A stretch of DNA of 64,000 nucleotides from Halorubrum trapanicum (GTDB taxonomy: Archaea > Halobacteriota > Halobacteria > Halobacteriales > Haloferacaceae), in the NCBI RefSeq assembly GCF_002355655.1, contig NZ_AP017569.1, forward strand, positions 2,728,001 through 2,792,000. The letters are read 5' to 3'. Each line of letters begins with the position of its first letter. The first letter of the stretch is position 1. Made by a program: the position numbers and the translations under genes. The notes below the pieces were generated by a model, which was not told where the DNA came from, ran no database searches, and saw only the letters and a list, made by a program, of their open reading frames with translations. Below, piece by piece: positions 3,434-13,461 of this stretch.

Positions 3434-3506
3434 GGGCCGGTGGGGTAGCTTGGTATCCTTCGGCCTTCGGGTGGCCGTAACCACGATTCAAATTCGTGCC
3501 GGCCCA
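3434..3506 (+). tRNA. tRNA-Pro (anticodon CGG)
   Basis: Acceptor arms GGGCCGG and CCGGCCC pair over 7 bp. The anticodon arm CGGCC-TTCGGGT-GGCCG places CGG in the loop, and the T arm is CACGA-TTCAAAT-TCGTG, with discriminator A at 3506. No intron. An upstream AT-rich GATTAAAAG about 30 nt before may be its promoter. CCA is not encoded. Confidence 0.95.
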
Positions 3507-3574
3507 CTTCCCGCATATACTTTTTCCACCCTTTACTGATAGGTATCCGTGGCCTTGTGCCGTGTCTTCGAGCG

Positions 3575-6500
3575 TCACCACGACACGCGGCGACCGAGGA
3601 CGAACACCACGAGCGCGACCAGAAGGGCGCCGAGGAACGACTCCAAGCCCGCGAGGAACCGAGACAGCGTTCCGACGGGCTGGATGTCGCCGTACCCGAG
3701 AGTGGTGAACGTGACGATGCTGAAGTAGAGGTTTTTCACCATGATGTCCATGCCCTCGGGCGTCGCGAGCTGCGAGAGGCTGTCGAGTCCCTCGGTGGTC
3801 AGCCCCGCCGCGTCTCCCGACGTCCCCTCCGTGAGCGTCGCGTACATGAAGCTCCATCCGACGACCACGACCACCGAAGCGTAGATGACTCGCCACAGTC
3901 GTTCTCCGTAGCCGCAGGACTGGTGCAGCAGATAGTTCCCGAGCCACTTACCCGCCGAGACGAACCGCACACCGAGGTCCTGATCCGGGTCTCGAACGAA
4001 CTGGTAGTTTTTCGCCCGCCTGTACTTCATCTCCTGAACGAAGAACTGCGCGGCCACGTGTCGGTCGCCGACCTGATCCGCGCCGTTTTTGGCCTTCAGG
4101 TAGGTGTTTTCGAGGTCGGCGGCCGTCGTCGTCTCGCGGAACTCCTCGTCGCCGGTCATCTCGTACAGCGTCTCGCTGCTCGGCATCTCCGAGGCATTTT
4201 CGGCGTCGGCGATCTCTTCGATGACTGCCCTGTCCAGTCCGGTCTGTTCTCGGAGCATCTCGACGTGATCGACCTCGTCGAAGAGTTCCCCGTCCAGCTC
4301 GTCGTCGGCCTCGTCCAGTTCGTCTTCGACGGCGAGCGCGTCGATGAGGTCCTGTCTTCCGGGGTTCACGAACTCCGCGTCGTCAACCGTGGTGTGTAGT
4401 TGCCAGTTGGCCTCCGCGAGTTCCTGTTTGTAGTTCCCGAAGTCGAACCCGTCGAAGCTGGTGTTCGCGAACCGGAAGTGCTCGAAGAGGTCCACGTCGC
4501 TCGCCTCTCCGAGGCCATCGGAGAGTTCGACCGCGCCGAGCTCCGCGTTCGCGAGGTCGTAGGCGATGTCGCCGTCGTCCGGGAGCGCGATCGCCCCGTC
4601 GGCGATCGCGCAGTTCCGCATGTCGACGACCGACTCGTCGCCGGTCCGCGTTCCCAGACATGTGAGATCGGCGAACGTCGACCCGAAGAACGCGGCCCCC
4701 GACTCGAAGTACACGCCGTCGAAGTTCGCCACGCCGCCGACCGTGATCATCTCGAAGGAGGCCGGCCCCTCGACGACCGTCTGCGCGAACGACGCGTCTT
4801 CGGCGAACTCCGCGTCGTCGAACGCACACGCGTCCCGCAGTTCGCACATCTGGAAGAGCGCGTCTCGCCCGAACGTCGCGTTGCTGAACGTCGTCGGACC
4901 CCCGACCGACGTGTCGACGACGTTAACGTCGTCCTCGAAGCGGGCGACGTCGCCGTCGAACTCGCCCTCGACGGTCATCGAGAGTGACAGCTGCCCCTCA
5001 AAGCGGCTCGACGAGATGTCCAACCCGCCCTCGATCGTTCCCTCGAAGAACATGACCGTCCCGCCGAACGTGACGGAGGAGAGGTCGCAGTCGTCACCCA
5101 CGTCGAGGTGGACGAAGTCGGCCTGTTCGCCCACGGACGCGGAACTGGCCTCGAGCGCGCCGCCGACCTCGGCCTCCCGCAGCGTCAGCAACTCCTCGAA
5201 CGTGCCGAGCGAGAGCTCCAGATCGCCGTCGATTTCGGCCCCCTGGAACGTCGTCACATCCCCGAAAGAGACCCCACTGAACGCACAGTCTCCGGTGACG
5301 CGCGTCCGCTGGAACGAGAACCGCTTCGCGACCGAGGCCGCGTCGAAGTCGACGCCCCCCGCGGTCAGGTCCTGACAGAGTACGTCCTGCCGGACCTCGG
5401 CGCTCGAAACCGACAGCGTTCCACCGACCCGTGCGTCCGATGCGTGGATCGTCTTCTCGACGGTCAGCTTCGACGCGGCGACGTCGCCGTCGACATCGGC
5501 GTCCGACAGTCTGAGATTCCTGACCCGACCGCCCCGTATTTTGACGTCGTCTTCGGCCTCGATCGCTCCCATCTTGAGGGAGCGATCACAGACCACGTGT
5601 CCGAGGTCAAGTGTCCCCGCGGCATGTGCGTGCTCGAACGACGCCGAGTCGAAGACCGTCCGAGAGAACTCCGCGTGGGCGCCGAACCGCGCTCCCTCGA
5701 AGTCCCCGCGATCTGTGAACGTCGCCCCGGTGAACAGTGCCTCTTCGCGGATGGTCGCGTCGTCGAAGGAGACGCCGTCGAGGAACTCCGACTTCCCGAA
5801 CCACGCGTGTTCCATGGTCGTCCCTTCGAACGACGCCCACGTCTTGAACGTCACCACGTTACAGTTCATCCCGCCGGCGACCCTCCCCCCGTCGAACCAG
5901 AGCGGTTGCCCGAACTCCGCCCGCCGGCAGTTGATCGACCCCTCGACGGTGGCGTACCTGAGATCGATCGGGTAGTTGTCTGGCCCGTCTACGATGTCGA
6001 ACGAGAGGTTCAGATCGCCGAATCGAGCGCCGACGAACTCGTTGGATTCCCGCCCCGACCGTTGAATCGCTTCGAGGAACTCGTCCCGAACGGCCTCGTC
6101 GTCGGTATCTTCGACCGGCGCGTGGAACAGACAGTACTCGCCGCCTTCCCGCGGGCTCCGGTGACAGGTCCAGACGTCGTCGTCCTGCTCCCGCGCGTGT
6201 TCTCCGAGGTCGCGTCCGTACGAACAGCGGTCGTCCGGGCGAGCGGCGGGGTCGACACGCGCGTCTTCGTCCCAGCCCGTCTCGATCGCACCGACCTCGC
6301 CGTCCGTCGCCGGGCCGGAAGCCTCGCGGCCGTCTCCCCCGTCGATATCGAGCGCGGTCTGAACGGTCTCGCGCATCTCCGCGAGGTCGTCGCCGTCGAC
6401 GCCCGAGACGGCGTCGGGATCGATCGAGTCCGTCAACGTGAGGAACTCCCGAAGCATGTCGTCGTCGAACGTGGCCAGCGTCTCCGCCCCGGCCGTCTCC

Positions 6501-7651
6501 ATCACCGCCGCCAGCTCCCGGAGCTTCTCGCCCGCTTCGTCGGCCACCTCGTCGCCTGCCGACGGCTCCGAGTCCGTCGCGCTGGCTCCTTCGGCGTCCT
6601 CGGCGACCGCCTCTATCGCTCCGTGGACGGCGCCCACGCTGCTCGTGTCGACGTCCTCGTCGAAGGTACTCGCGAGCACGTCGCCGATCTCGTCGGGGTA
6701 CGCGTCGGCCAAGCCGTGGAGCGCCTTCTTTGCGTCCGCCCGCGTCTCCTCGCGAGCGTCGGCGAGCAGGTCGACGAGTTCGAACTGCGCCGGCAGCACC
6801 ACGTCGGGGTACTCGGCCACGAGCGCACGACACGCGCCGACTGCGTGGGCACGGACCTCGTCGTTACTGTCGGCGAGCGCATCAGCGAGCACTCCGCTCG
6901 TTTCGGCCACGGCCCCTGGAGTGGCTTCGGACACGGACGCCAGCGCTTCGCTCGCGAGTTCGCGCACGTCCGGGTCCGGATCGTCGAGCCGGTCCGCAAG
7001 CGGCTCGACGGCCTCGACCACCAAGTCCGGTTGCTGGTTGGCGATCCGGTTCAGACACAGCGCGGCGTGGTACCTAACCACGTTGTCCTCGTCGTCCAGC
7101 CGGGAACAAAGCGATTCGCCGCGGGTCGCGACTTCCTCGGGGTACCTCAGTGCGAGGCGGGTGAGCGCCAGCGTCGCTTCGTTCCGCTCGGTCGAATTCT
7201 CTGCGTCAATCCCGGCGGCGGCGTCTTCGACCGCTCTCACGGCTGCGTCTCCAATGTCGTCTGCGGCGTCGGGGCCGAAGTTGTCGAGGGCGGTCCCGCA
7301 CTTCTCGCGGACGTCGCTGTCGCCGTCGGTGAGTCCGCTGACGAGGGGTTCGATCGCGTCTCGACACTCCTCCGAGCGGTCTTCTACGAGCCGGCTGAGC
7401 GCAAGCGCGCTGTTGTGTCTGATCACGCTCTGATCGTCGGTTTCGAGCCGTTCGATCAGTGCCGGAAGGGCGTCCAGAACCGCGTCCGCTCGCGTCTTTG
7501 CCACCCGGCTCAGGACCGTCACCGCGTCGTTTCGAACCGTTGCGTCGTCGTCGTCGAGAAGCGCCACCACCTCCGGAACGTGTTCGACGACCGCGTCCTG
7601 ATCGCTCACGGCCGTCTCCGCCCACTCCGAGAGCGGTGCGTCATCGCGCAT
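3575..7651 (-). CDS. HEAT-repeat / pentapeptide-repeat / two-TM potassium-channel fusion
   Basis: A 1358-residue membrane protein. Residues 1 to about 350 are acidic HEAT-like helical repeats of about 40 residues (for example VVALLDDDDATVRNDAVTVL). Around 470-510 lies a Cys/His cluster (CSYGRD...CHRS...CLFH) that could bind metal. From about 520 to 1000 run pentapeptide-like repeats (A-x-F, C-x-F, A-S-F steps) forming a predicted beta-helix. The C-terminus is a channel module: TM1 about 1253-1273, pore helix, selectivity filter TTLGYGD at 1316-1322 and TM2 about 1330-1354, as in two-TM K+ channels. Inference: a K+ channel with a large cytoplasmic sensing or scaffold region. A TATA box about 26 nt upstream implies a leaderless single-gene transcript. 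Confidence 0.9.
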   Translation of the reverse strand: MRDDAPLSEWAETAVSDQDAVVEHVPEVVALLDDDDATVRNDAVTVLSRVAKTRADAVLDALPALIERLETDDQSVIRHNSALALSRLVEDRSEECRDAIEPLVSGLTDGDSDVREKCGTALDNFGPDAADDIGDAAVRAVEDAAAGIDAENSTERNEATLALTRLALRYPEEVATRGESLCSRLDDEDNVVRYHAALCLNRIANQQPDLVVEAVEPLADRLDDPDPDVRELASEALASVSEATPGAVAETSGVLADALADSNDEVRAHAVGACRALVAEYPDVVLPAQFELVDLLADAREETRADAKKALHGLADAYPDEIGDVLASTFDEDVDTSSVGAVHGAIEAVAEDAEGASATDSEPSAGDEVADEAGEKLRELAAVMETAGAETLATFDDDMLREFLTLTDSIDPDAVSGVDGDDLAEMRETVQTALDIDGGDGREASGPATDGEVGAIETGWDEDARVDPAARPDDRCSYGRDLGEHAREQDDDVWTCHRSPREGGEYCLFHAPVEDTDDEAVRDEFLEAIQRSGRESNEFVGARFGDLNLSFDIVDGPDNYPIDLRYATVEGSINCRRAEFGQPLWFDGGRVAGGMNCNVVTFKTWASFEGTTMEHAWFGKSEFLDGVSFDDATIREEALFTGATFTDRGDFEGARFGAHAEFSRTVFDSASFEHAHAAGTLDLGHVVCDRSLKMGAIEAEDDVKIRGGRVRNLRLSDADVDGDVAASKLTVEKTIHASDARVGGTLSVSSAEVRQDVLCQDLTAGGVDFDAASVAKRFSFQRTRVTGDCAFSGVSFGDVTTFQGAEIDGDLELSLGTFEELLTLREAEVGGALEASSASVGEQADFVHLDVGDDCDLSSVTFGGTVMFFEGTIEGGLDISSSRFEGQLSLSMTVEGEFDGDVARFEDDVNVVDTSVGGPTTFSNATFGRDALFQMCELRDACAFDDAEFAEDASFAQTVVEGPASFEMITVGGVANFDGVYFESGAAFFGSTFADLTCLGTRTGDESVVDMRNCAIADGAIALPDDGDIAYDLANAELGAVELSDGLGEASDVDLFEHFRFANTSFDGFDFGNYKQELAEANWQLHTTVDDAEFVNPGRQDLIDALAVEDELDEADDELDGELFDEVDHVEMLREQTGLDRAVIEEIADAENASEMPSSETLYEMTGDEEFRETTTAADLENTYLKAKNGADQVGDRHVAAQFFVQEMKYRRAKNYQFVRDPDQDLGVRFVSAGKWLGNYLLHQSCGYGERLWRVIYASVVVVVGWSFMYATLTEGTSGDAAGLTTEGLDSLSQLATPEGMDIMVKNLYFSIVTFTTLGYGDIQPVGTLSRFLAGLESFLGALLVALVVFVLGRRVSW

Positions 7652-7673
7652 GTGCCTCCCGTTCAGGGCGAGA

Positions 7674-7680
7674 AATATAA
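7674..7680 (-). promoter_or_regulatory. TATA box of the channel-fusion gene
   Basis: Minus-strand TTATATT lies 26 nt before the ATG at 7651, the usual spacing for a leaderless haloarchaeal transcript. Confidence 0.6.
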
Positions 7681-7838
7681 GCGTGGGTGAGAGCCGGCGA
7701 TCGGCCGAAGGAATCCATTCGAGCGATCGACCAAAACCACCCCGATCGAGCGATCGGCCGAGGCCGTTCGAACCCTGGGCTCGGGGAGGCCGTCTCGTAA
7801 GATCGTCCGCCTGTCGTTTCGACCCCGAACTGAGGCCA

Positions 7839-7845
7839 TTTATTA
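7839..7845 (+). promoter_or_regulatory. TATA box of the DUF429 gene
   Basis: TTTATTA sits about 28 nt before the ATG at 7870. The gap 7652-7838 holds repeated CGATCGAGCGATCGG-type palindromes of unknown role. Confidence 0.55.
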
Positions 7846-7869
7846 CGTTACGCTGCGAACTGAGACGAA

Positions 7870-8637
7870 ATGGAGTCGGAAACAGTCGCGGGCGTCGACT
7901 GGGCGGGCGGCGCGTGGCTCGCGGTCGTGTTCGACGACGAACCGGAGCCCCGCCTCGAACCCGACCTCGAAACGCTGTGGAACGACGGCGTCGACCGGAT
8001 GCTGGTCGACGTGCCGATCGGCCTCCCCGACGACCCGGAGACGCTGGCGAAGCGCGAGGCGGTCGACTCGGCCGCGCGATCGGCCGTCGAGCGTCCGAGC
8101 AGCGTCTTTCCCGTCCCGTCGCGGGCCGCGTGCCGGGCGGCGGTAGCAGGCGCGGACTACGAGACGGTCAACGAGCGGAACAGAGCAGATCTCGACAAGG
8201 GGCTCAGCCGGCAGTCGTACCACATCGCGCCGGCGGTCGGCGAGGTTGACGCGTTCCTCCGCGAGGACGAGGCGGCGCGCGACCGGGTGCTGGAGGCGCA
8301 CCCAGAGGTGTGCTTCCGCGGTCTCACCGGGCGACCCCTAGAACACTCGAAGACGACGGCACCGGGCGTCGGCGAGCGGCTAGACGCGCTTGACGGCCAC
8401 TTCGACGACCCGGAGGAGGCGTTAGGCCGGGTCTGCCGAGAACTCGCGGAGGCGCCGGCCGACGTCGCGGACGCCGCGGACCCGACCGTCGACGACGCGG
8501 TCGACGCGCTCGGGCTGGCAGTCGTCGCATCCCGCCCGGCAGACGAACTCCGAGTCCTGCCGGTGGATGCCAACTACCGCGACAGCGAGGGGATCCCGAT
8601 GCGGATGGCGTACTGGAGCGCGGAGCCGCTGGCGTGA
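7870..8637 (+). CDS. DUF429 domain protein
   Basis: A 255-residue soluble protein. The N-terminus VAGVDWAGGAWLAVVF matches the actin/RNase H-like first strand of DUF429 proteins (G-x-D-x-A...), followed by the family segments DVPIGLPD, a central R-x-S-S-V-F-P-V-P region and HPEVCFRGLTG. DUF429 members are predicted nucleases or nucleotide-binding proteins without a settled reaction. The gene stands alone with its own TATA box. Family call is fairly firm, function open. Confidence 0.8.
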   Translation: MESETVAGVDWAGGAWLAVVFDDEPEPRLEPDLETLWNDGVDRMLVDVPIGLPDDPETLAKREAVDSAARSAVERPSSVFPVPSRAACRAAVAGADYETVNERNRADLDKGLSRQSYHIAPAVGEVDAFLREDEAARDRVLEAHPEVCFRGLTGRPLEHSKTTAPGVGERLDALDGHFDDPEEALGRVCRELAEAPADVADAADPTVDDAVDALGLAVVASRPADELRVLPVDANYRDSEGIPMRMAYWSAEPLA

Positions 8638-8742
8638 GGCGCGGCCGGGATCGGAGCCCGCCGACGTCCCCCGGGGCAGCGAGCGCGATCCGATGCCGAC
8701 GTTGGTAAGGTTCAAGGCCCTCTGTCACCCGCTACGACACGA

Positions 8743-9444
8743 ATGAAACTCTTCTCCTCGCGGGCGGACCGCCGGCGGGGGATCGCGGCCGCGGTCGGCG
8801 TCGCGGTCCTCGCGGTCGGGTTCTACGTCCTCGTGAGCCGCTACGCGGGCTTTGTCACCGACGCCGAGGCCCTCCGGACGTGGCTCGACCAGTTCGGTAT
8901 CTTCGCCCCCATCGTGTTCATCGGGATCCAGGCCCTCCAGGTCGTCGTCGCCCCGATACCGGGACAGGTCGTCGCCCTCGTCGCGGGCTTCCTCTTCGGC
9001 CCGCTATGGGGGACGGTGTACAGCCTCACCGGCGTGCTCATCGGCAGCGCGGTGGCCTTCTCGCTGTCGAAGCGGTACGGTCGCTCCTTCGTCGAGAACG
9101 TCATCCACGAGGACGTGATCGAGCGGTTCGACGGGTTCGTGGACACCGTCGGCGTCCCCGGACTGTTCGCGTTCGTCATCATTCCCGGCCTCCCCGACGA
9201 CGCCATCTGCTTCCTGAGCGGGCTCACCAAGTGGTCGCTGCCCACATTCATGGGCGTCATCGCCGTCGGCCGCCTCCCGGCGTACGTGCTGACGGTGTAC
9301 GCGGGCGGCGAACTGGCGAGCGGGCGGTTCCTCTCCGCGATGGCGCTCGTCGCGCTCGTCGTGGCCGCGTCCGCGGTCGGCTACTACAAGCAGGAGGCGG
9401 TCCGCGACCTCGTCGAGCGCGTCGAGCCGCGGCTGCCGTTCTGA
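8743..9444 (+). CDS. TVP38/TMEM64 (DedA-like) membrane protein
   Basis: A 233-residue integral membrane protein with about six hydrophobic segments. The family core is visible: P-x-P-G-Q-V-V-A-L-V-A-G-F-L-F-G-P-L-W-G followed by SKRYGRSF, and later the second re-entrant region FVIIPGLPDDAICFLSGL. TVP38/TMEM64 and DedA proteins are linked to lipid scrambling or proton-coupled transport in other organisms; the role in haloarchaea is not established. It ends about 25 nt from the convergent GtrA gene. Confidence 0.88.
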   Translation: MKLFSSRADRRRGIAAAVGVAVLAVGFYVLVSRYAGFVTDAEALRTWLDQFGIFAPIVFIGIQALQVVVAPIPGQVVALVAGFLFGPLWGTVYSLTGVLIGSAVAFSLSKRYGRSFVENVIHEDVIERFDGFVDTVGVPGLFAFVIIPGLPDDAICFLSGLTKWSLPTFMGVIAVGRLPAYVLTVYAGGELASGRFLSAMALVALVVAASAVGYYKQEAVRDLVERVEPRLPF

Positions 9445-9468
9445 GCGACTCGAAACGAGCGCAACGGA

Positions 9469-9891
9469 TCAGCTCCACGTCCACTGCGAGTCGAGGACGA
9501 AACGGTACAGCCCGCTGACGAGGATCGCGGGCACGTTCGCGACGAGCGCACCCATCCCGCCCCACTCGACGAGCGCGTAGAGCACGCCGATCTGGATCGG
9601 CCACGCGGTCCCGCGAACCAGGTTCGTCTTGAGCAGTCCGCCGAGGTACTCGGACAGGCCAGTGTTCTGACTCGCCCGAAACGTCCACGCGTTGTTGAGC
9701 ACGTACGAGAGGACGATCGTGATCTCGATTGCGATGGTCGCGGCGAGGAGGTAGTTCAGTCCGGCGACGTTGTCGAACAGCCACAACAAGCCCATCTGTA
9801 TCCCCGCGGTGAACGCGCCAACGATCACGAACCGACGCATTTGAACCGCGAGCGGTCCGCTCACGAGGTTGCGCAACAGGGCGCGGACCAT
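9469..9891 (-). CDS. GtrA-family membrane protein
   Basis: A 140-residue protein with four membrane spans, typical of the GtrA/DPMS family (about 120-150 residues), which helps move polyprenyl-linked sugars across the membrane. The signature R-R-F-x-x-V-G-A-F-x-A-G-x-Q near residue 19 and the second-half helix YVLNNAWTFRAS are clear. Its ATG overlaps the stop codon of the sulfatase gene by one base (TAATG), so the two are translationally coupled. The pairing suggests a joint cell-surface glycan or glycolipid function, which is inference. Confidence 0.88.
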   Translation of the reverse strand: MVRALLRNLVSGPLAVQMRRFVIVGAFTAGIQMGLLWLFDNVAGLNYLLAATIAIEITIVLSYVLNNAWTFRASQNTGLSEYLGGLLKTNLVRGTAWPIQIGVLYALVEWGGMGALVANVPAILVSGLYRFVLDSQWTWS

Positions 9892-11459
9892 TACGTATAC
9901 CCGAGCGCTTCGAGGCGAGCTTCGAGGTCTTCGTCGACCTCCTCCTCGCCGCGCTCGGCCGCGGCCGCTTCGGCCGCGGCGCCGCGCTCGCGGAGCAGCT
10001 CCGCGTGGGCGTCGACGACCGGCGCGAGCCGGTCGATCACCGCCTGCGCCTCCTCGTCGGGGTCGACCGCGAGGTTCTCCCGTTGGGTCGGGTCCGCGGG
10101 GCGGTGGTACAGCTCCCGCTCGCCGGCGTCGACGTTCTCGATGAACGTCCAGTCGTCGTCCCGCGCGCTGACGAACAGGTCGCCGTCGGACAGTGACCGG
10201 GGGATCGGCTGCTGGGTCACCTCCTCGCCGCGGACGGTCACCGAGACGACGGGATCGTCGGGGACGTCCGGACCGTCGGCATCGGCCTCGTCGCTGGTTT
10301 CCGATCGGACGTCGCCACCGTCGCTAGTCGCGGACGGAGCGCCGTCGCCGCCCAGCGCCGGCACGAGCGACTCGCCGTGCCACTCGGGGGCGGGGTCGAC
10401 GCCGAGGAGGTCGGCGACCGTGGGCGGAATGGCGTCGAGCCCGACGTGGCCGTCGACGCGGCCGCCGTCGAGCCCGGGGACGTCGGCCACGAGCGGGACG
10501 TGGATCAGCTCGTCGTACAGCTTCGGGTAGTGGGCGAGGTGGCCGTGCTCTTGGAACTCCTCGCCGTGGTCGCCAGCGAGCAGCACCGCGGTGTCGTCGG
10601 CGACGCCCGCGCCCTCCAGACTGTCGAGCAGGCGGCCGATGCTGGCGTCGACCTGCCGTACCGTCGCCTGATACAGGGTCCGGAGCTCGCGGAGGGTCCG
10701 CTCGCCCACTTCGAGTCCGAGGCTCGTCCGGGCGTGCGCGTGGAGCATCTGGTGGGTGCCGACGATGCCGTCCGACACCTCGCGGATGTACCGGGGCGCG
10801 GGGACGTACGGGGTGTGGGTGTCCATGTAGTGGACCCACAGGAAGAACGGCTCGTCCGTGTCGTCGACGAACCCGGTCGCGGCGTCCTCGACGTCGAACA
10901 TGCGCGAGGCGTCGAGGAACGGGCGGTCGTCGCTCTCGCCGCGGAGCCTCGACCCGAGCCGGCGGATCGGGGAGGACGCGAGCTGGATCCACGCCTCGAC
11001 CGTCGGGTGGGCGGCGAGGTACCGGCTGTAGCGGCTGGAGCCGACGCTCGTGACGAACGGCTCGAACTCGTCGAACCCGTCGGGGTACCCCCAGTGGTCG
11101 GTGAGGAAGCCGTTGGCGGCGTTGAACCCGCCGGTCGCGATCCCGGCGTCGGAGAGCACCTCCGCGAGCGTCACCGACTCGTCGACGCCGATGTCGCCCG
11201 ACCGAGCGAACACGGGCTCCGACGCGAGGATCGACGGGAACGAAAAGGGCGTCCAGTTGCCCGTCGCGAACGCGCGGTCGAACACGGTCCCGCCGTTGGC
11301 GAGGCCGTCGATGACGGGCGAGCGCCGCTCGTCGTCGTACGGGGAGACGGCGTCCGCGCGCAGCGAGTCCACCGTGACGAGAACGACGTTCGAGACGGTC
11401 GCGTCGTCGTTCGACGCGTCCGCGTCCGCGGCTGAAGATGTCGACAAGTCGGATGTCAT
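9891..11459 (-). CDS. Sulfatase / alkaline-phosphatase-superfamily hydrolase
   Basis: A 522-residue enzyme. The N-terminal metal-binding segment NVVLVTVDSLRADAVSPY, the central HYMDTHTPYVPAPRYI and the AGDHGEEFQEHGHLAH segment supply the Asp/His ligands of arylsulfatase-like enzymes. Where classical sulfatases have C/S-x-P-x-R, this protein shows NWTPFSFPSIL, so conversion to formylglycine is doubtful and it may be a phosphodiesterase or phosphotransferase instead. No signal peptide is evident. Coupled to the downstream GtrA gene. A TATATCC about 62 nt upstream could be its promoter with a short leader. Confidence 0.85.
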   Translation of the reverse strand: MTSDLSTSSAADADASNDDATVSNVVLVTVDSLRADAVSPYDDERRSPVIDGLANGGTVFDRAFATGNWTPFSFPSILASEPVFARSGDIGVDESVTLAEVLSDAGIATGGFNAANGFLTDHWGYPDGFDEFEPFVTSVGSSRYSRYLAAHPTVEAWIQLASSPIRRLGSRLRGESDDRPFLDASRMFDVEDAATGFVDDTDEPFFLWVHYMDTHTPYVPAPRYIREVSDGIVGTHQMLHAHARTSLGLEVGERTLRELRTLYQATVRQVDASIGRLLDSLEGAGVADDTAVLLAGDHGEEFQEHGHLAHYPKLYDELIHVPLVADVPGLDGGRVDGHVGLDAIPPTVADLLGVDPAPEWHGESLVPALGGDGAPSATSDGGDVRSETSDEADADGPDVPDDPVVSVTVRGEEVTQQPIPRSLSDGDLFVSARDDDWTFIENVDAGERELYHRPADPTQRENLAVDPDEEAQAVIDRLAPVVDAHAELLRERGAAAEAAAAERGEEEVDEDLEARLEALGYT

Positions 11460-11615
11460 GGGGTACGGTGCGAACCCCCGGAGAACGCGGTCACTGCGGG
11501 CGAACGCCGGGATACGCGGATATACCAGAATCGGGGGGTGCTAGCCGCTTGAGGATTTCGATCCCCCACATCCCGGGCGAGTACCTATTTGTCGGTGCCG
11601 ACGCACGGGATCCGT

Positions 11616-12572
11616 ATGGAGAACGCACCCACCGGCCGGCAGGTCGACGAGGCGACGCTGCCGGGGCCGGTCCCCGACGACGAGATCCCGGAGTCGGTTC
11701 CGGGGCGGTCCCGCGTGATAGCGACGAACGGGGTGCCGCTCCACGTCGTCGAGGCCGGCCCCGAGGACGGGAAGCTCCTGGTCCTGCTCCACGGCTTCCC
11801 GGAGTTCTGGTACGGCTGGCACGAGGCGATCGCGCCGCTCGCGAACGCGGGCTACCGCGTCGTCGTCCCCGACCAGCGGGGCTACAATCTCTCCGCGAAG
11901 CCGTCGGCGGTGCGCGACTACCGGATCGACGAGCTCGCGCTCGACGTGGTCGGGCTGATCGACGCCTACGACCGCGAAACGGCCGCCGTCGCCGGCCACG
12001 ACTGGGGCGCCGCGGTGGCGTGGTGGCTCGCGCTCGCCCACGAGGACCGCGTCTCGGAACTGGTCGCGGTCAACGTCCCGCACCCGACCGTCTTCGAGCG
12101 CGCGCTGCGCACCTCGTGGGACCAGCGGCTCAAGAGCTGGTACATGCTCGCGTTCCAGCTTCCCAAGCTCCCCGAAGCGGTCGCGAGCGCCGGGAACTGG
12201 CGGCTCGCGACGAACGCGCTGCGGGACACGAGCGCGCCCGGAACCTTCACCGACGAGGACCTGCGACGGTACCGCCGGGCGTGGGACCGCGACGGCGCGT
12301 TCGAGGCGATGGTGAACTGGTACCGCGCGATCGTCCGCGACCGTCCCGAACCGCCGACGACGGAGGTCTCGGTCCCGACGCTCGTGATCTGGGGCGGCAA
12401 AGACCGGTTCCTCGCGCGCCGGCTGGCCAACGAGAGCGTCGACCGCTGCGTCGACGGTCGGCTGCTCGCGATCGACGACGCGACCCACTGGGTCGTTCAC
12501 GAACACCCGCACCGCGTCGCCGAGGCGATCGCGGACCACGCCGACCCGCTGCCGCCGGGCGCGCGGGAGTGA
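11616..12572 (+). CDS. Alpha/beta hydrolase, epoxide hydrolase-like
   Basis: A 318-residue soluble enzyme. HGFPEFWYGW forms the oxyanion-hole region, GHDWGAAVAW carries the nucleophile Asp of the epoxide hydrolase/haloalkane dehalogenase group, and the C-terminal THWVVHEHP carries the catalytic His. The lid region (about 130-230) contains Tyr and Trp residues as in epoxide hydrolases. The start is ATG 11616, about 28 nt after a TATA-like ACCTATTTG; an in-frame TTG at 11589 is less likely. Epoxide hydrolase is favoured over dehalogenase because of the H-G-F-P-E-F-W segment. Confidence 0.87.
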   Translation: MENAPTGRQVDEATLPGPVPDDEIPESVPGRSRVIATNGVPLHVVEAGPEDGKLLVLLHGFPEFWYGWHEAIAPLANAGYRVVVPDQRGYNLSAKPSAVRDYRIDELALDVVGLIDAYDRETAAVAGHDWGAAVAWWLALAHEDRVSELVAVNVPHPTVFERALRTSWDQRLKSWYMLAFQLPKLPEAVASAGNWRLATNALRDTSAPGTFTDEDLRRYRRAWDRDGAFEAMVNWYRAIVRDRPEPPTTEVSVPTLVIWGGKDRFLARRLANESVDRCVDGRLLAIDDATHWVVHEHPHRVAEAIADHADPLPPGARE

Positions 12573-12615
12573 GGTCGGGGGGTCGAATACTGTCCCCGAC
12601 GAGCCGCCACAAAGA

Positions 12616-12621
12616 TTATAT
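12616..12621 (+). promoter_or_regulatory. TATA box of the coiled-coil gene
   Basis: TTATAT is 27-29 nt before the ATG at 12645 within a short AT-rich stretch, consistent with a leaderless transcript. Confidence 0.6.
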
Positions 12622-12644
12622 CTGCCCTCGTCCAAAGGACAGAT

Positions 12645-12917
12645 ATGAGCAAACACTTCGAAGACGCGCGGTACTACCTCGGTCGAGCGGCGGAACACGC
12701 CAAGGCGGGCGTAAAAGAGGAGCTAGAACCCGTCGAGGCCCGCGTGAAGGAGCTCGTCGGGCGCGAAGACGAGGAGCCCGAGCCCTCGCGGCTGGACAGG
12801 CTCCAGGCTGACCTGAAGGAACTGGAGGAGCGCGCAGAGGGCGAGGCGCGCGAGGCGGTCGCGTCCGCCCGGGAGCGCGTCGCCGAGTACCGCGGCAAGG
12901 ACACCGCTGCGGAGTAG
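12645..12917 (+). CDS. Small acidic coiled-coil protein (DUF7553-like)
   Basis: 90 residues, almost entirely predicted helix with heptad-like Leu and Ala spacing (LDRLQADLKELEERAEGEAR) and many Glu and Arg. No membrane span or cysteine. Small helical proteins of this kind beginning M-S-K-H-F-E-D-A-R-Y-Y-L are common in haloarchaea and have no assigned function. It has its own TATA box and is convergent with the next gene. Confidence 0.75.
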   Translation: MSKHFEDARYYLGRAAEHAKAGVKEELEPVEARVKELVGREDEEPEPSRLDRLQADLKELEERAEGEAREAVASARERVAEYRGKDTAAE

Positions 12918-12933
12918 TCACGCCGCGAACGCC

Positions 12934-13461
12934 TTATCGGACCGGCGGTCCCGGTGCGGCGGCTTCGTCGCCGCCGATTCGCTTCTCGGCGGGGAGTACC
13001 GCGTACTCGATGCCGGCTTCCTCGAACAGCGACCGCGCCCGTTCGATGCCCTTCTGCGCGTCGACGTCGGTCGCGCGGTAGTGCCGGATCGGGTGGCGGA
13101 TCCACGACGGCTCCCAGTGCGCGTACACGTCGGTCGTCGAGCGGTCCGTTCCGGAGTACAGCGCGAGGTGGAGCTGGTAGTCGCTCGCGAGCGCGCCCTC
13201 GGGGTACCGGACCCAGCTCGCGACGGTCGTCTCCGGCGGCGTCTCGTAGTCGCGGTACTTGAGCGAGGAGACGAGGTTGCGGACGAATCCGAGCCGGTGG
13301 AGCTGCGCCTCGACGATCGGGTACGGTTCGTGAAGCGTGAACGCGTACTGCTCGCGGGGCGTCTCGCGCTCGGCGTAGAGGCCGACGAGCGACAGCGGCG
13401 CGTGGAGGAGGCTCGCGACCTCCTGACGGAGGCGTTCGAGGAAGCGGAGTTCGTGGGTCAC
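12934..13461 (-). CDS. Conserved haloarchaeal protein of unknown function, 175 aa
   Basis: A soluble 175-residue protein that starts at GTG 13459-13461. It has two halves of similar style with many aromatic residues (SLVGLYAERETPREQYAFTL; SDYQLHLALYSGTD) and no cysteine motif or membrane span. Codon use and acidity match its neighbours. I do not recognise a family. It is convergent with the coiled-coil gene and divergent from tRNA-Val; a CTTAAG box at about 13510 may serve either side. Confidence 0.65.
   Translation of the reverse strand: MTHELRFLERLRQEVASLLHAPLSLVGLYAERETPREQYAFTLHEPYPIVEAQLHRLGFVRNLVSSLKYRDYETPPETTVASWVRYPEGALASDYQLHLALYSGTDRSTTDVYAHWEPSWIRHPIRHYRATDVDAQKGIERARSLFEEAGIEYAVLPAEKRIGGDEAAAPGPPVR

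Follow-up and report, generated by a model that had tools for sequence, protein, structure and literature searches.

A haloarchaeal gene joining HEAT repeats, a pentapeptide-type beta-helix and a predicted two-transmembrane K+ channel pore in one chain

A predicted potassium channel pore that stands at the very end of a chain of 1358 residues raises the question of what the solenoids preceding it are for, and whether they could control it. The gene in question lies in a 64,000-nucleotide stretch of DNA from Halorubrum trapanicum (contig NZ_AP017569.1), which was analyzed as a whole and is termed the window here. An initial annotation, made from the letters alone, had proposed that HEAT repeats (about 350 residues), pentapeptide-like repeats (about 480 residues) and a K+ channel are joined in one polypeptide, that a TTLGYGD filter lies at its C-terminus and that orthologues should be searched for the same domain order. 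The union in one chain is confirmed by the open reading frame (ORF), by Pfam matches above curated cut-offs and by orthologues; the filter is where it was said to be, the two lengths are about right as judged by Pfam and periodicity, and orthologues of the same build are present in Halorubrum (Table 1). Its one omission was the strand, which is minus.

A conserved gene at a variable tRNA-adjacent spot

Full-length orthologues are found in Halorubrum sodomense (94% identity) and Halorubrum sp. GN11 (83% identity), and in the three Halorubrum species the gene is intact, occupies the same locus in the same gene order and is under purifying selection, with a whole-gene dN/dS of 0.23-0.27 against the orthologues. 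In the same comparisons the pore has a dN/dS of 0.04-0.18 and the HEAT part one of 0.27-0.40, and against the 83% orthologue the pore (0.06) is the most constrained domain while the HEAT part (0.375) is clearly freer, as would be expected if the effector stays constant and the sensor varies. An 860-residue ORF runs opposite on the plus strand; a chance antisense ORF is nevertheless rejected as an account of the minus-strand gene because of the two full-length orthologues and the purifying selection, and both conservation and dN/dS agree with the minus-strand frame. The placement of a TATA-like element upstream of the ATG is consistent with the promoter of a leaderless haloarchaeal transcript, and an Rfam search returned nothing beyond one sub-threshold chance match.

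Table 1. Features of the channel gene and its surroundings in the window
Feature	Coordinates	Strand	Basis or remark
tRNA-Pro(CGG)	3434..3507	+	ARAGORN; borders the variable spot that holds the channel gene
Complete channel gene, 1358 aa, ATG start	3575..7651	-	HEAT, Cys/His, beta-helix, linker, predicted 2TM K+ channel pore
TM2, aa 1328-1356; chain ends two residues on	3584..3670	-	Hydropathy, AF2 helix
K+ selectivity filter TTLGYGD, aa 1316-1322	3686..3706	-	Sequence, alignment
TM1, aa 1252-1272	3836..3898	-	Hydropathy, AF2 helix
C-cap and helical linker, aa 1041-1250	3902..4531	-	E-x-TYL-x-A ... GYG-x-R motif, ten-member alignment
Pentapeptide-type right-handed beta-helix, aa about 536-1040, ~20 coils	4532..6046	-	PF13576, 11/22-residue period, AF2 model
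Cys/His motif C476-C496-C507-H510 (aa 476-510), W-x-C-x10-C-x2-H	6122..6226	-	Zinc-site candidate that precedes the beta-helix
Acidic linker, aa 341-470, 28.5% D+E	6242..6631	-	With HEAT, the fastest-evolving part
HEAT alpha-solenoid, aa 14-320	6692..7612	-	PF02985/PF13646/PF13513, repeats of ~37 residues
TATA-like CTTATATTT	7673..7681	-	Centred 26 nt upstream of the ATG; read from sequence

Homology to sister Halorubrum species stops at 3516, just beyond the tRNA gene, and starts again at 7879. By comparison with these species, the channel gene belongs to the accessory cargo of a variable spot next to the tRNA gene, since they show the spot either empty (a spacer of 0.6-0.76 kb in four of them) or occupied by something else, which is a hybrid histidine kinase (L142, with a near-identical 482-residue ORF in L150) or a chemoreceptor-like protein (MCP; L143). 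An integrase-made att repeat was looked for and rejected, there being no repeat at the far end. Cargo of this kind beside a tRNA gene invites the thought that the channel serves in defence or abortive infection, as an effector set off by its HEAT part as sensor, and that part does weakly resemble OloA (1.8e-8, PADLOC). This reading is considered very improbable, however, as the match covers generic HEAT only, the paralogue of this genome that lacks HEAT has none, the other cargo of the spot is sensory (histidine kinase, MCP) and the genes around it are of ordinary kinds (OMP decarboxylase, RNA methyltransferase, CHY zinc finger, DUF429, VTT and sulfatase genes). A known anti-phage system is likewise rejected: OloA and weaker WGR_XIII matches, both over the HEAT part, are all that was obtained, and there is no defence neighbourhood.

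Domains of the chain

The HEAT part is recognized by Pfam HEAT, HEAT_2 and HEAT_EZ over about residues 14-320 with E-values of 1e-16 to 1e-17, above the curated cut-offs; its hydropathy autocorrelation has a period of 37 residues, which falls among the tandem helical hairpins of ~37-43 residues that mark HEAT repeats, and designed HEAT (alphaRep) chains match it in sequence.

The second solenoid is recognized in eight stretches by Pentapeptide_3 (PF13576; 2.4e-21, above the curated cut-off). Pentapeptide repeat proteins are marked by tandem five-residue repeats of the form A(D/N)LXX; here the main period is 11/22 residues and not 5. An AF2 model spanning residues 466-1358 is confident for the beta-helix alone, with a pLDDT of about 85-94 across most of residues 566-940 that declines to 56-77 by residue 985. 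The right-handed beta-helix that characterizes pentapeptide repeat proteins is found in this model, and in VIA-align it resembles HetL (3du1; Z 18.0, rmsd 2.9 over 219 residues) and QnrB1 (Z 16.3), with the reservation that many other right-handed beta-helices also resemble the model, some of them at higher Z. HetL, QnrB1 and AlbG have the same right-handed beta-helix, but they are soluble, have five-residue repeats and carry no channel. A Foldseek search with the long model gave no match at E below 0.001 because half of the model is of low confidence.

At the other end of the chain, Ion_trans_2 matches residues 1307-1356 with 44.5 bits (cut-off 22.5, E 1.5e-11), the T-x-G-Y-G filter that marks a K+ channel pore lies between two transmembrane helices (hydropathy peaks at 1252-1274 and 1328-1358), and NaK-type chains match in sequence over residues 1297-1346. 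Conduction of K+ by the predicted pore is likely. A second model, of residues 985-1358, was built from nine alignment rows that included rows of other channels; its mean pLDDT is poor (42.6), with TM1, the pore helix and TM2 at about 70. Foldseek matched this pore model to NaK, KcsA, Kir and Kv pores, mostly at a probability near 1.0 but with E-values of only 0.02-0.08, and the TM-score by target against NaK and KcsA was about 0.5-0.7. Because other channels sat in its alignment, the model confirms little beyond the sequence; the minimal NaK and KcsA pores are alike in the fold of this low-confidence pore module, and differ in having no large cytoplasmic solenoid. Between beta-helix and TM1, the linker motif E-x-TYL-x-A ... 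GYG-x-R is kept across ten aligned members whose N-termini differ.

The region between the two solenoids has an AF2 pLDDT of about 27-45 around its Cys/His motif, which is probably a zinc-binding cap, as a candidate assigned from its conserved ligands. The initial annotation had taken the Cys/His cluster to be an oddity of the HEAT fusion. This did not hold, in that the W-x-C-x10-C-x2-H motif, with its C, C, C and H ligands, is found in 29 of the 52 family members surveyed, including the HEAT-less paralogue (L081) in the same genome, and so belongs to the wider family.

A haloarchaeal family and its rare HEAT variant

The nearest known proteins are haloarchaeal 'pentapeptide repeat-containing proteins' with a C-terminal Ion_trans_2 domain, such as L081 (1153 residues, 17 Pentapeptide_3 stretches) and WP_227356951.1 from a Haladaptatus plasmid, which have in common with the present chain the PF13576 beta-helix, the TYLKAK...GYGER linker and a chain that ends with the pore, as well as, in many cases, the Cys/His cap. 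To the long Halorubrum paralogues the channel part is 60-63% identical. They differ in that they have no HEAT part and that some filters read TIGYGN or TIGYGG, or are missing. When the channel part was used as query against 392 genomes of the order, 259 of them gave matches, a figure that takes in generic K+ channels; most relatives have 500-1350 residues and the same build without HEAT, and other members carry a longer beta-helix in its place. Conversely, HEAT and Cys/His as one joined stretch were found in 5 of the 392 genomes, belonging to three families of the order: three Halorubrum, one further genome termed G353 and another termed G130, where the match covers positions 136-580 of 580. 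The suggestion that the HEAT fusion is unusual is hence borne out. Taken at the level of sequence, beta-helix, linker and pore form a widespread haloarchaeal family of which the HEAT form is a rare variant. Apparently the family is otherwise unstudied, as an open-access literature search on it, on pentapeptide with channel and on pentapeptide with HEAT in haloarchaea returned nothing relevant.

The HEAT forms require three changes on the channel tree; a single clade of them, tried as a constraint, is nevertheless compatible with the data (p-AU 0.106, not rejected). The HEAT part may thus have been present in one ancestor and lost later, or have been gained more than once. A HEAT-bearing relative in another family (L092:4635-7910) has an altered filter, FSTLGFGGV; its HEAT part, at 30% identity and 66.6 bits, appears no closer than unrelated haloarchaeal HEAT proteins, which score about 64 bits.

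Orthologues encoded by separate genes had been named at the outset as what would speak against a single polypeptide. Such an arrangement was seen once, in G353, where an ORF for HEAT and beta-helix and an ORF for the channel overlap at ATGA (L090:5155-8792), but it is doubtful that the split is real. In that genome both pentapeptide channel genes (L090 and L091) have a break in one and the same domain, directly ahead of the channel; in the second copy it is a frameshift, and one of the two breaks coincides with a short run of TTTCCC, which makes a sequencing or assembly error likely. On the same grounds the split is rejected as evidence for separate subunits. An error of this kind is judged as likely as a real split.

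Members of a further subfamily (eight loci) keep the linker, TM1 and TM2 and have a re-entrant-like loop of the FSFQSF type with no GYG filter. In addition, in three genomes a TTLGYGD gene stands in tandem with an FITLEYV gene (L087:4380-8306 and 9047-13108; L085:10614-14306 and 5747-9769; L088:4859-8269 and 8343-9527), which gives pairs of one canonical and one degenerate filter. These sequences suggest channels that are heteromeric or do not carry K+, and they may be a greater surprise than the fusion with HEAT. Since a filterless subfamily exists, such a build can be maintained where no K+ is conducted, and it might be argued that the membrane part acts chiefly as an anchor or as a regulatory subunit and that the cytoplasmic solenoids carry the function; that subfamily, which is sizeable, and the tandem paralogues with FITLEYVG in place of the expected TLGYGD would both agree with this. 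For the present gene such a reading is improbable, given its perfect TTLGYGD and a dN/dS that, against the 83% orthologue, is lowest in the pore.

Possible control of the pore from the N-terminus

The best explanation, and one that is probable by a modest measure, is a tetrameric, K+-selective 2TM channel of the haloarchaeal 'pentapeptide channel' family that is regulated from its N-terminus. The domain order, the pore, the beta-helix, the absence of a C-terminal domain, the orthologues and the selection acting on them are supported by sequence and models together. In the presumed tetramer, the solenoids would lie on the cytoplasmic side, zinc would be held by the cap and gating of the K+ flow would fall to the scaffold.

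In 2TM K+ channel subunits both ends are cytoplasmic, and therefore ~1250 residues per subunit would precede TM1 on the inner side of the membrane, with next to nothing beyond TM2. Among the 33 members with a readable filter, 32 have it at a distance of exactly 42 residues from the chain end, which leaves no C-terminal regulatory domain, and no RCK (TrkA) domain was found after TM2 among the Pfam matches. In the well-studied prokaryotic K+ channels of the RCK type, control is exerted by a domain that follows the inner helix and pulls from the C-terminus of that helix; none of the family members checked has such a handle. MthK and GsuK, which are of the RCK type, likewise combine a 2TM pore and a K+ filter with a bulky regulatory part in the cytoplasm, but theirs comes after TM2, whereas here everything precedes TM1 and the chain ends at TM2. 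Because nothing follows TM2, any control must come from the N-terminus via TM1, and the simplest reading, which the initial annotation had also proposed, is that the scaffold would gate the pore. The cytoplasmic part of each subunit would comprise the HEAT solenoid, the Cys/His cap, the ~20-coil beta-helix and the helical linker, whose conserved ...TYLKAKN...GYGER... segment leads into TM1. A partner, ligand or surface might bind the HEAT solenoid, or the rod might be strained, and the linker would pass this on to TM1 such that the pore opens or closes; the HEAT part would then be an exchangeable sensor, in place of which relatives use more beta-helix. A precedent for N-terminal cytoplasmic control of a 2TM K+ channel is offered by MthK, whose N-terminus is described as controlling desensitization (PMC2573919).

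The chief rival of the gating reading is an anchored leak channel, a K+ pore that is not gated by the scaffold and that HEAT part and beta-helix only position at a partner or a site in the cell. HEAT and pentapeptide solenoids are usually protein-binding scaffolds, and most members have the same pore without HEAT, so that the role of the HEAT part could be to anchor or position the channel instead of gating it. An ungated K+ pore would be costly, however, to a cell with molar K+ inside, and many positions of the linker that leads into TM1 are conserved, for which a mere tether has no need; a leak channel is thus regarded as rather unlikely. Small counterparts of the pentapeptide channels exist on IMG/VR contigs (L151-L154), in which a short pentapeptide-like stretch is followed by a 2TM K+ pore; L152-L154, on contigs of predicted viral or proviral origin, also have a similar helical linker. 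These are much smaller, have no HEAT part and no Cys/His cap, and are 27-33% identical.

Beyond the single gene, control from the N-terminus via TM1 might hold for a large haloarchaeal 2TM family throughout, with interchangeable solenoid sensors (HEAT, extended beta-helices) and with heteromers in which subunits of degenerate or absent filter join canonical ones, a broader proposal that is put forward tentatively. If it is true, its gating layout would be the opposite of that in RCK channels. Organisms whose life depends on molar K+ carry this family widely, and yet it has nothing at the position of RCK-type control; if the scaffolds do gate the pore, its members with beta-helix only, with longer beta-helix, with HEAT and beta-helix, and without filter would provide a natural series for tests of how N-terminal force or binding opens a K+ pore.
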